Assembly: GCF_021502575.1 (NCBI RefSeq)
Contig: NZ_JAKFGN010000001.1
Span: 310,001-374,000, forward strand
Source: Bradyrhizobium sp. G127
GTDB lineage: Bacteria; Pseudomonadota; Alphaproteobacteria; Rhizobiales; Xanthobacteraceae
Direction: 5' to 3'
Length of the DNA: 64,000 nucleotides
Made by a program: the position numbers and the translations under genes
Shown: piece by piece, positions 9,260 to 15,152 of the stretch
Layout: each line of letters begins with the position of its first letter
Position numbering within the stretch: position 1 is the first letter of the stretch
The notes under the pieces: model-generated
Database searches by the model: none
The model's input: the letters and a program-made list of their open reading frames with translations, nothing else
What the model was told of the DNA's origin: nothing

Positions 9260-9718
9260 CTACCTTCCGGTGGAACCAAACCCGCCGCTGCCGCGATCCG
9301 TAGACGACAGCGCCGATACCTCCACCAGATTTGCCTGCGTCACCGCAGCGATGACAAGCTGGGCGATGCGTTCGCCGCGCCGGATCGTGAACGGCTCGTC
9401 GCCGTGATTGATCAAAAGCACTGAAACTTCGCCGCGATAGTCGGCGTCCACCGTGCCCGGCGCGTTGAGAACGGTCACGCCGTGCTTGAGCGCGAGGCCA
9501 GAGCGCGGCCGGACCTGCGCCTCGTGGCCCGGCGGCACCGCGATCATCAGCCCGGTCGGCACCAGCGCGCGTTGCCCGCGCGCCATCGTCAGCGGCCTGT
9601 CCTGTGGAACCGCAGCAAGCAGGTCGAGACCGGCAGCATGGGCGCTCTGATAGGCCGGCAGCGTGAGGCCTTCGGCGTGCGGCAGGCGCTGAATCTCGAC
9701 GGTGATGCTCAATGTCAT
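9260..9718 (-). CDS. dut: dUTP diphosphatase
   Basis: A 152-residue trimeric-type dUTPase that hydrolyses dUTP to dUMP and keeps uracil out of DNA. All five family motifs are visible in order: [45 protein letters not shown] and the flexible C-terminal [10 protein letters not shown]. Length is normal. The start at 9716-9718 overlaps the coaBC stop in ATGA, so dut is translated from the coaBC message and should share its control. Confidence 0.97.
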
Positions 9719-11151
9719 GCGGGCTGTTGTCCTGCGGTCGTCACGATCTTCGCCACGAGGGCGTCGGCGACCTCCTCTTTGGTCATCACCGGCCAGGAAT
9801 CAATAGCGACATCAACAGCGACGTCGGCTTTATCCAGCGTAAGAACGTGGACCGTGTTGCGGTCGCCGCCCATGACGCCGGTTGCCGGCGACACATCGTT
9901 GGCGACGATCCAGTCGCAGCCCTTGCGTTTCAGCTTCGCGGTGGCGTTCTCGATCAGGTTCTGGGTCTCCGCTGCAAACCCGATCACAAGTTGCGGCCGG
10001 TTTTGCTTGAGTTTCGACACAGTGGCGAGAATGTCGGGATTCTCCACCAGTTGCAGGGGCGGCATGCCAGCGGATGTCTTCTTGATCTTCTGGTCGCCGG
10101 CATTGGCGACGCGCCAATCGGCTACCGCGGCGGCAAAGATTGCGATGTCCGCCGGCAGCGCAGCCTCGACCTGCGCCAGCATGTCGCGCGCGGATTCCAC
10201 ACGGATGACGCGAACGCCGGGAGGATCGTCGAGATCGACCGGGCCTGAGACCAGCGTGACGTCGGCGCCCGCATCCGCCGCGGATGCGGCAATGGCATAG
10301 CCCTGTTTGCCGGATGAGCGGTTGGCGATGTAGCGCACTGGGTCGATCGGCTCGTGGGTCGGCCCTGCGGTGATCAGGATTTTCTTGCCTGCCAGAGGTT
10401 TCGGCTGCGGCGGGCGAAGCATGGCGTCGGCAGCAGCGGCGATTTCCAGCGGTTCGGACATGCGGCCGACCCCGGCCTCGTTGGCCTCCGCCATCTCGCC
10501 GGAATTCGGGCCGATGAAATGGATGCCGTCACGCGCGAGCTGCGCGACGTTGCGCCTGGTGGCGGCATTGGCCCACATCAGGGGGTTCATCGCGGGTGCC
10601 AGCAGCACCGGTCGGTTGGTCGCCAGCAGGATCGCGGTGGCGAGATCGTCGGCATGGCCCTGCGCCATTTTTGCCATCAGGTCGGCGGTGGCGGGGGCCA
10701 CGACAATCAGGTCGGTGTCGCGGGCGAGGCGGATGTGGCCGGCGTCAAACTCGCTCTGGGCATCGAACAGGTCCGTGTAGCAGCGCTCGTCGGCCAGTGC
10801 AGAAGCTGTGAGCGGTGTGACAAACTGCTGCGCGGCGCGGGTCATGACGCAGCGGACATGGACGCCGCGATCCCTGAGCCTCCGGATCAGATCAAGCGCC
10901 TTGTAGGCAGCGATGCCGCCGCCGATGATGAGCGTGACGCGGGGCTTGTCTGTCACGGTGTGCGCGCGCTGCGGCCTGAGGGCTGACTTCACTTCGGGAG
11001 CCCTCGGCGCCGTAACGTCCGCGTGTCCTTCCGTGGCCCCGCGCAGGATCACCCGCACCTCGTCCTCGACTGAGCGGCCGTTTTGGGCGGCGCGCAACCG
11101 GAGGCTGGCTTTGAGGGCTTCGTCGAGCTTCCGGACGGTCAGACTGGCCAT
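9715..11151 (-). CDS. coaBC: CoaBC with an N-terminal ribbon-helix-helix domain
   Basis: A 478-residue protein with three parts. Residues 1-37 ([20 protein letters not shown] then [17 protein letters not shown]) look like an FitA/Arc-type ribbon-helix-helix DNA-binding domain of toxin-antitoxin systems. After a linker (38-70), residues 71-245 are CoaC, the flavin-dependent phosphopantothenoylcysteine decarboxylase, with GGGIAAYK, His139 in GHIRLAR and PAMNPLMW. From about 255 on is CoaB, the cysteine ligase, with [22 protein letters not shown] and the KIKK segment. The two enzymes make phosphopantetheine for coenzyme A. The ATG has GGGAG upstream and a promoter with palindromes 22 bases further. 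No toxin gene is adjacent. Confidence 0.93.
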
Positions 11152-11172: not shown

Positions 11173-11222
11173 TTTATAGCAAATGATTGCAATGCAATCA
11201 AATCATGACTGCAATGCTATCA
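11173..11222 (-). promoter_or_regulatory. coaBC promoter with two operator-like palindromes
   Basis: On the minus strand a -35 TTGATT (11196-11201) and a -10 TATAAA (11173-11178) are 17 bases apart, giving a short leader to the ATG at 11151. The palindrome TGATTGCAATGCAATCA at 11184-11200 has perfect 8-base arms and overlaps the -35 and spacer. A second, imperfect copy, TGACTGCAATGCTATCA, is at 11206-11222, centred 22 bases away (about two helical turns). This is how ribbon-helix-helix autorepressors usually bind. Confidence 0.7.
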
Positions 11223-11224
11223 GT

Positions 11225-12793
11225 TTAGCGAATGATCCAGAGAATGGCCATCAACGTCAGCGCGATCGCCCAGAGTGCCACTGTTTGCCAACGATTGCGC
11301 TGGGCTTCGGCCTTGCCGATGGCGGCGACCGTTTCGGGCGCCAGCACCAGCCCGTTGCGGGTCATGTCCTCGAACTGGTTCAGCACCGCGATCGAGCGCG
11401 CGGCAATCGCCGGCAGCCCGGACAGCACGCGGCCGAGTTCGCCCGCGCCCGCCACCGCGCCTTCGATCTTGCCTCGCGGTCCGAGATTGCGCTCGATCCA
11501 TTCGCGCACCACGGGATCGGCGGTGGTCCAGATATCGAGTTTGGGGTCGAAGCCGCGGGCCACGCCTTCCACCACCACCATGGTCTTCTGCAGCAGGATC
11601 AGTTCGGGCCGCGTGCGCATGTCGAACAGGCCGGTGACTTCGAGCAGCAGCGACAGCAGTTTCGCCATCGAGATTTCGTCGGCGGCGCGGTTGTGGATCG
11701 GCTCGCCGATGGCACGGATGGCCTGCGCGAAATTCTCCACCGAGTGATGCGCGGGGACATAGCCCGCCTCGAAATGCACCTCGGCGACGCGGCGGTAATC
11801 GCGCGTGATGAAGCCCAGCAGAATTTCCGCGAGGAAGCGCCGCTCCTTGAGGCCGAGCCGGCCCATGATGCCGAAGTCGACCGCGACCAGACGCCCAACC
11901 TCATCGACGAACAGATTGCCGGGGTGCATGTCGGCGTGGAAGAAGCCGTCGCGCAGGGCGTGACGCAGGAAATTCTGGATCACCTTGCGGCCGAGGTCCG
12001 GCAGGTCGATCTGCGCGGCCTCCAACCTGGCGCGATCGTTCAGTGCGATGCCGTCGATCCATTCCATCGTCAGCACATGATGGCTGGTGCGGTCCCAGTC
12101 CACCGTCGGCACGCGGAAGTCGTGATCGTCGCGGGTGTTCTCCGCCATTTCGGACAGCGCGGCTGCTTCCAGCCGCAGGTCCATTTCCATCGCCACCGAG
12201 CGAGCCAGCGTATCGACGATCTCGACCGGACGCAGGCGACGCGCTTCAGCGGAGACCGCTTCCATCTTGCGCGCGACGAACATGAAATCGCCGAGATCCT
12301 TGCGGAAGCGCCCGCCGACATTGGGGCGCAGCACCTTGACCGCGACCGGCGTGCGCACAGCGTCCTTCTCGACCTCGGCGCGATGCACCTGGGCAATGGA
12401 GGCGGCGGCGACGGATTCGCCGAAGCTTGCAAACACCTGCGCCACAGGCTTGTCGAACGCGGTGACGATCACGGCTTCGGCTTCAGCTTGGGGAAACGGC
12501 GGCAGGCGGTCCTGAAGATTCTCCAGGTCGCGCGCCATGGTGACGCCGACCACATCCGGCCGTGTGGCAAGGAACTGGCCGAGCTTGACGTACGTGGGAC
12601 CGAGCCGCGTCAGCGCGCGGGACAACCGTCCGCTGGTAGCTGCGCCGCGCCGTTCGATCAGCCGCGCGATCCTGATCGGCAGCACCGCCTGCGGCGGCAG
12701 TGACGACGGATCGGCAAAGCCGAACACGCCTTCGCGCGCGAACACGTAAGCCGCGCGCGCCAGCCTTGCGGTATGAGTGAGAGCTGCGATCAC
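11225..12793 (-). CDS. ubiB: UbiB-family protein for ubiquinone biosynthesis
   Basis: A 522-residue ABC1/UbiB atypical kinase, an ATPase-like factor needed for ubiquinone synthesis at the inner membrane. It shows the family KxGQ motif ([13 protein letters not shown]), [23 protein letters not shown], the catalytic-like [14 protein letters not shown] and VDFGIMGRL, and a hydrophobic C-terminal stretch ending [17 protein letters not shown]. The GTG start at 12791-12793 overlaps the ubiE stop (GTGA); the open frame continues upstream out of homology, so that extension is rejected. coaBC follows after 73 bases with its own promoter. Confidence 0.95.
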
Positions 12794-13557
12794 AAACGCC
12801 AGCCTGAATGCAGCGCGACGATGCCGCCGGACATGACGTCGTATTTGACGCGCGAGAAGCCCGCGGCGCGGATCATGTCGGCGAAGGCGTTCGGCTTGGG
12901 AAACTGCCGGATCGATTCCACCAGATAGCGATAGGATTCGGCGTCGCCGGTCACGGCCTTGCCCAGCTGCGGGATCACGTTGAACGAGAACAGGTCGTAG
13001 ATCCTGTCGAGGCCTGGCACATCGACGGACGAGAATTCCAGGCACAGAAAACGCGAGCCGGGTTTCAGCACGCGATAGGCCTCGCTCAAGGCCAAGGGAA
13101 TGCGCGGCACGTTGCGGATGCCGAATGCGATGGTGTAGGCGTCGAAGCTCTTGTCCGGGAAGGCGAGGGATTCGGCGTTGCCTTCGACGAACGACACCTG
13201 ATGATCGAGACGCTGCGCCACGGCGCGCTCGCGGCCGACGGCGAGCATCTCGCCGTTGATGTCGCAGACGGTGGCATGAAATCCGCTGCCGGATGCTTTC
13301 GCCGCGCGGAAGGAAATATCGCCGGTGCCACCAGCCACGTCGAGCAGTGCGAACGGCGCGTCGCCGCGCGGCGGATTCAGCGCGGTGATCATCGCCTCTT
13401 TCCAGAGCCGGTGCATGCCCCCGGACATCAGGTCGTTCATCAGGTCGTACCGCTTCGCCACGCTGTGAAACACCTCGTTCACCAGCGTCTGCTTGTCGCC
13501 GAGCTCCACGTCGCGGAAGCCGAAATGCGTCGTTCCGTCAGGCCGTTCCATACTCAT
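12790..13557 (-). CDS. ubiE: UbiE, demethylmenaquinone/2-methoxybenzoquinol C-methyltransferase
   Basis: A SAM-dependent C-methyltransferase of ubiquinone synthesis, about 255 residues from the ATG at 13557. It has [24 protein letters not shown] at the start of homology, the glycine-rich SAM site [27 protein letters not shown] and the C-terminal [12 protein letters not shown]. An ATG two codons inside (13551) is also possible, and the open frame runs 27 codons further upstream without family similarity. It is coupled to ubiB by a four-base overlap and points away from the glyoxalase-like gene. Confidence 0.95.
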
Positions 13558-14956: not shown

Positions 14957-15152
14957 CAGCGTTCGGTGCAAGCCGGGGGCGGCCGGTTGCGGGATTCGCA
15001 TGGGCTGAATTGCCACACAAACGAAATGTCAAAATGGTGACGGAGTTCAGCGCATAAGGCGGGATGGTGACGATTCCGTGCGCGCTCCTTTCCTGGCCGG
15101 GAGCGCGGGTGATTGCGATGCAACCACGCCAGTTTTGCTGCGAGCGGCCGGA

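Follow-up and report, generated by a model that had tools for sequence, protein, structure and literature searches.

FitA-type operator boxes at the coaBC promoter of Bradyrhizobium sp. G127 and the likely domestication of an antitoxin by CoaBC

Two similar palindromes lie over the predicted promoter of coaBC in Bradyrhizobium sp. G127, and the question is which protein reads them and where this arrangement came from. The locus was studied in a window of 64,000 nucleotides, i.e., the whole stretch of DNA that was analysed, and its features are collected in Table 1. The palindromes are likely the operator of a ribbon-helix-helix (RHH) domain fused to CoaBC itself. CoaBC would then repress its own operon by means of a domesticated FitA antitoxin. 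That CoaBC binds the sites, does so cooperatively, represses, and needs no ligand is inferred, as there are no binding or expression data.

Table 1 Features around the coaBC promoter (positions in the window)
Feature	Position	Strand	Description
proximal operator	11184..11200		boxes TGATTGCA and TGCAATCA, arranged TGATTGCA-A-TGCAATCA; full sequence TGATTGCAATGCAATCA
distal operator	11206..11222		boxes TGACTGCA and TGCTATCA (TGATAGCATTGCAGTCA on the coding strand), arranged TGACTGCA-A-TGCTATCA; full sequence TGACTGCAATGCTATCA
predicted promoter TTGATT-17-TATAAA	11173..11201	-	from the sequence; GCTA conserved in the Afipia alignment
coaBC	9715..11151	-	FitA-like RHH (aa 2-39), disordered linker (about 42-68), CoaC (71-232), CoaB (253-436)
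RHH coding segment	11035..11148	-	sole PF22513 match in the genome
dut (dUTPase)	9260..9718	-	start overlaps the coaBC stop (ATGA)
ubiB	11225..13045	-	open reading frame as listed; true start possibly further in

The proximal operator is a 17-bp palindrome with 8-bp arms that are 100% complementary, and it overlaps the predicted -35 and the spacer of coaBC. On the minus strand, TTGATT (11201-11196) is followed by a 17-nt spacer, TATAAA (11178-11173), and the coaBC ATG at 11151. The distal operator, which adjoins the stop codon of ubiB, is 89% identical to the proximal one in register, at a centre-to-centre distance of 22 bp. The preliminary description, made from the sequence alone, had claimed a perfect-arm 17-base palindrome over the -35 and spacer of a TTGATT-17-TATAAA promoter and an imperfect second copy 22 bases away. 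Both claims held, the promoter itself being predicted. The phasing of 22 bp held in part, since it is typical of the relatives and not universal. A generic sigma-70 scan passed over this promoter, whose -10 does not end in the T that the scan requires. The -10 can alternatively be read as GCTATAAA, a sequence that fits the alphaproteobacterial -10 type.

The palindrome pair is genuine and far beyond chance. When the 4.76-Mb genome was searched with up to 3 mismatches, the sole perfect match and one of the two matches with 2 mismatches were these palindromes, both within the top three. The reversed pattern, used as a control in the same whole-genome search (up to 3 mismatches), gave zero matches. 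Across 29 Afipia promoters, conservation peaks at the proximal palindrome, with a mean major-base frequency of 0.90 versus 0.42 in the 5' leader. The third match, TGATTGCGATGCAACCA (window 15110-15126, 2 mismatches), stands between a mutM-like gene and a trypsin-like gene that converge on it. As it is the one further site with up to 2 mismatches, a wider regulon in this genome was rejected.

The unit of the operator is the 8-bp box TGNNNNCA, with variants including TGATTGCA, TGATATCA, and TGATAGCA. Counted over 68 promoters, 232 boxes were present versus 54 in shuffles. Spacings of 9 bp were observed 92 times (0.3 in shuffles) and spacings of 22 or 23 bp 74 times (0.5 in shuffles); those of 13/14 and 31/32 bp, also present, are the differences and sums of the two. 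The usual promoter carries two box pairs; the boxes of a pair are 9 bp apart, and the pairs are 22 or 23 bp apart. Some other genera have a compact TGATTGCATTGATTGCAATGCAATCA form with boxes 9 bp apart. The arms are complementary in 29 of the 92 nine-spaced pairs. The other 63 are without complementarity, each box still matching TGNNNNCA, and it is therefore DNA recognition that is conserved and not an RNA hairpin. By analogy with other RHH proteins, each box would take one RHH dimer. Elsewhere in the order, two genomes (G288 and G050; loci L068, L069, L076, and L077) each contain several dispersed, near-identical 17-bp palindromes with no detected FitA gene nearby, possibly repeats or another regulon. 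Further palindromes in the order, exact or near, were set aside, no FitA being detected near them.

The candidate reader is encoded by the downstream gene. The N-terminus of CoaBC (aa 2-39) is a FitA-like RHH domain of family PF22513 (E 1.9e-16; 60.2 bits versus a Pfam cut-off of 27), as the preliminary description had claimed in more general terms. The only solved structures of note related to it by sequence are those of gonococcal FitA (2h1o and 2bsq). A genome search for further PF22513 proteins found none, which leaves CoaBC as the one protein of the FitA type detected there to read an operator of that type. The AlphaFold2 model contains confident RHH helices and a confident enzyme, divided by a disordered linker of about 25 residues, spanning residues 42-66 (pLDDT under 50). 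When the RHH monomer model was searched for related folds, no match was significant, as can be expected of a fold whose sheet forms only in the dimer. The C-terminal tail with which FitA neutralises its toxin is absent from CoaBC, and the linker stands in its place. In Afipia, pN/pS was 0.20 for the RHH domain, 0.20 for CoaB, 0.15 for CoaC, and 0.77 for the linker. The RHH domain is thus constrained like the catalytic domains, i.e., under purifying selection, and the linker is nearly neutral.

No PIN toxin gene is adjacent to coaBC here, with ubiB directly upstream and dut downstream. The coupling of dut to coaBC, also part of the preliminary description, was confirmed as an ATGA overlap (9718-9715), and the same -4 overlap occurs in 84 of 113 fused loci. 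The joint control of both genes that had been deduced from it rests only on this overlap, a common arrangement. At two loci (L021 in the Afipia MAG G025, and L199), a frame change separates the RHH part, as a peptide of 53 aa, from the coaBC frame, while the operator is unaffected. The split is either natural or an artefact of assembly.

Across genomes, the operator tracks the RHH domain. The 29 Afipia homologues have recognisable boxes in front of the gene. Outside Afipia, a matrix trained on Afipia only detected the operator upstream of 40/41 RHH-coaBC fusions from other genera versus 0/75 coaBC genes that had neither the RHH domain nor toxin-antitoxin genes (Fisher p 1.9e-30, genomes counted as independent). 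Tree contrasts on well-supported branches left three independent usable cases, of which about 2.8 agree on average and none oppose, too few for significance. In a separate scan of GTDB genomes with an RHH alignment, 74 of the best 80 RHH relatives were fused to CoaBC, and all 74 had operator matches. These fusions occur in Afipia, Bradyrhizobium, Rhodopseudomonas, Tardiphaga, Pseudolabrys, Rhodoplanes, and MAGs with other labels. One fusion (G070, L094) has no recognisable operator within 200 bp, and its leader looks occupied by repeat-like sequence. Comparison with related genomes had been suggested in advance as a check on the palindromes; they are kept where the RHH domain is present and absent where it is not. 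The earlier claim of an RHH repressor operator is thus strongly supported in its link to the domain; repression, cooperativity, and the transcription start are inferred. An unfused coaBC of genus g3 (G169, L108 / L296) bears a decayed half operator, CCGCGGCATTGCAATCA, at -47, possibly left over after loss of the domain.

The origin of domain and operator, missed in the preliminary description, is a FitAB locus once situated between ubiB and coaBC. Relatives hold fitAB at this junction, of which ubiB forms the upstream side. Free FitA-like genes whose promoters contain the same boxes are found there and in MAGs labelled as other phyla, and UbiB was confirmed upstream by tblastn in all junction loci with free FitA-like genes. 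FitA and/or FitB material was present in 9 of the 96 unfused coaBC upstream regions surveyed; the background is 0-4 FitA-like genes per genome (20 genomes checked). Several states of the locus survive. An intact fitA-fitB pair immediately precedes coaBC in G425, G250, G370, G456, and G106, as well as in G460 and G444, which were found through the operator. In G037 and G076, fitA is intact and fitB internally deleted; the toxin remnant of G037 comprises 34 aa, in frame, with both toxin ends retained, and its intact fitA has no recognisable site. In G499 and G393, fitA is lost or decayed, and fitB is wholly or partly retained. Fused coaBC genes make up most of family f1 and occur in G468 of family f16 and in G349, G319, G438, and G419 of family f24. 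The linker of the G419 fusion, QELVSGMPLSDKR, corresponds to DNA that G284, where coaBC is unfused, uses as the untranslated leader and start codon of the gene. It is a fusion scar encoding the former 5' leader and start codon, as shown by computation. In G284 itself (L175 / L286, family f24), two FitA-like genes and then a VapC of a different type lie directly upstream of coaBC; the junction possibly attracts toxin-antitoxin systems.

The fusions do not form one group. A single clade of all fused CoaBC was rejected (p-AU 3e-87), and parsimony needs seven state changes. For the four fused CoaBC of family f24, the CoaBC tree does not reject a single origin (p-AU 0.72), although the RHH domains of these proteins resemble two different types of antitoxin. 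Within the order, fusions were seen in three families, and the genomes sampled from outside the order, but within the class, had none. As an intact toxin-antitoxin pair is implausible as the product of a fusion, evolution likely proceeded from the fitAB pair to the fusion. The pair may have been inserted once in an ancestor or several times.

Computation establishes the sites and the domain, the co-occurrence of the two, the selective constraint, the intermediate loci, and the fusion scar. The mechanism proposed on this basis is as follows. FitA-type RHH dimers would bind the TGNNNNCA boxes, four of which are present here. These cover the -35, the spacer, and the upstream edge of the predicted coaBC-dut promoter, so that bound dimers would block RNA polymerase and abundant CoaBC would repress the coaBC-dut operon. 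Indeed, VapBC-type antitoxin complexes bind operators at their own promoters and repress them (PMC3920265, PMC3384007). Because CoaBC cores are dodecamers, one particle would carry several RHH dimers on flexible tethers and could hold several boxes at once. The signal would be the concentration of CoaBC rather than a ligand, which is favoured because the linker is disordered and nearly unconstrained. Through the ATGA overlap, dut would follow the control of coaBC. Domain and operator would stem from a fitA-fitB operon at the ubiB-coaBC junction, the toxin having been deleted and the DNA-binding half of the antitoxin fused to CoaBC in more than one lineage. A bolder reading also appears likely: a lodged toxin-antitoxin operon placed an essential gene under antitoxin control, and repeated toxin loss and fusion then yielded a self-repressing enzyme, as a general route.

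Other readings of the locus can be considered. Dimeric regulators are the usual binders of promoter palindromes, and another factor, e.g., of the FNR/FixK or TetR type, might occupy the sites, the RHH domain being an unrelated passenger. Part of the site, TTGAT...ATCA, does resemble an FNR box. However, the arms are 9 bases apart and do not meet the TTGAT-N4-ATCAA spacing of FNR/FixK, so an FNR/FixK box was rejected. The sites, moreover, follow the RHH domain and vanish without it, free FitA loci bear boxes of the same type, and the domain is under purifying selection. A foreign regulator is therefore very unlikely. The palindrome might instead be an RNA hairpin or the terminator of ubiB, and a scan does flag 11200-11184 on the minus strand as terminator-like. 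Nevertheless, the stem has 3 G-C pairs and the tail reads TTTGC, and the nine-spaced pairs of relatives are mostly non-complementary, their arms not covarying. In the absence of a G+C-rich stem with a T run here, and of arm complementarity in most nine-spaced pairs of relatives, this candidate was rejected and is practically ruled out.

The remaining alternatives accept that the RHH domain binds its operator. It could activate coaBC or merely tether the enzyme to DNA, and AmrZ, an RHH protein, both activates and represses (PMC3325190). This is also very improbable, as the placement of the operator over the predicted -35 and spacer suits repression, and complexes of the VapBC type are repressors of their own operons. 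Finally, autorepression might be switched by a ligand in the CoaB domain (CoA, acyl-CoA, CTP, or 4'-phosphopantothenate), making CoaBC a coenzyme A sensor as BirA is for biotin. BirA and PutA are both ligand-switched, and both CoA and acyl-CoA inhibit the CoaB of M. tuberculosis (PMC7794376). Against this, the disordered, nearly neutral linker of 25 residues offers no obvious path for allostery. The argument is weak, and ligand switching is considered unlikely but not excluded. Autorepression governed by CoaBC concentration remains the preferred reading.

Little is known about how bacteria control coenzyme A synthesis at the level of transcription, and coaBC provides a specific predicted autoregulatory circuit, conserved in Bradyrhizobium, Rhodopseudomonas, Afipia, Tardiphaga, and Pseudolabrys. 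In addition, the ubiB-coaBC junction documents the domestication of a toxin-antitoxin system with unusual completeness, from the intact pair through toxin deletion to antitoxin fusion, with the operator retained throughout. It bears on the fate of chromosomal toxin-antitoxin systems and on the origin of self-repressing enzymes such as PutA. If the proposal is true, the junction preserves each step of a route from toxin-antitoxin systems to self-regulating enzymes. No description of such a CoaBC, of its derivation from an antitoxin, of the conserved operator, or of intermediates surviving in place turned up in the literature searched; coverage was incomplete, and novelty is provisional.

Several known systems resemble parts of this arrangement. 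CoaBC of Mycobacterium (6TGV), a dodecamer inhibited by CoA thioesters (PMC7794376), is the same CoaC-CoaB enzyme without the RHH domain. The biotin ligase-repressor BirA and NadR are cofactor-pathway enzymes whose N-terminal DNA-binding domains repress pathway genes. These domains are of the helix-turn-helix type and ligand-switched. In contrast to CoaBC, they are not known to have a recent toxin-antitoxin ancestry with surviving intermediates. FitA/FitB of Neisseria gonorrhoeae, a VapBC-type system, shares the RHH family PF22513, and its FitA uses RHH dimers to bind the operator of the operon that encodes it (PMC3920265). The boxes here match TGATAGCA, which we take to be the gonococcal FitA half-site. 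In contrast to FitA/FitB, the toxin is missing from the locus, the toxin-binding tail is lost, and the RHH domain resides within an essential metabolic enzyme. That an enzyme can repress its own operon through an N-terminal RHH domain is already known from the metabolic flavoenzyme PutA (PMC5293562). PutA is catabolic, switched by proline and redox state, and associates with the membrane; its RHH domain is not known to have an antitoxin origin. Like trifunctional PutA, CoaBC joins an N-terminal RHH domain to a metabolic enzyme, and its operator overlaps its own predicted promoter, but the operator is a different one, and CoaBC is biosynthetic and essential.
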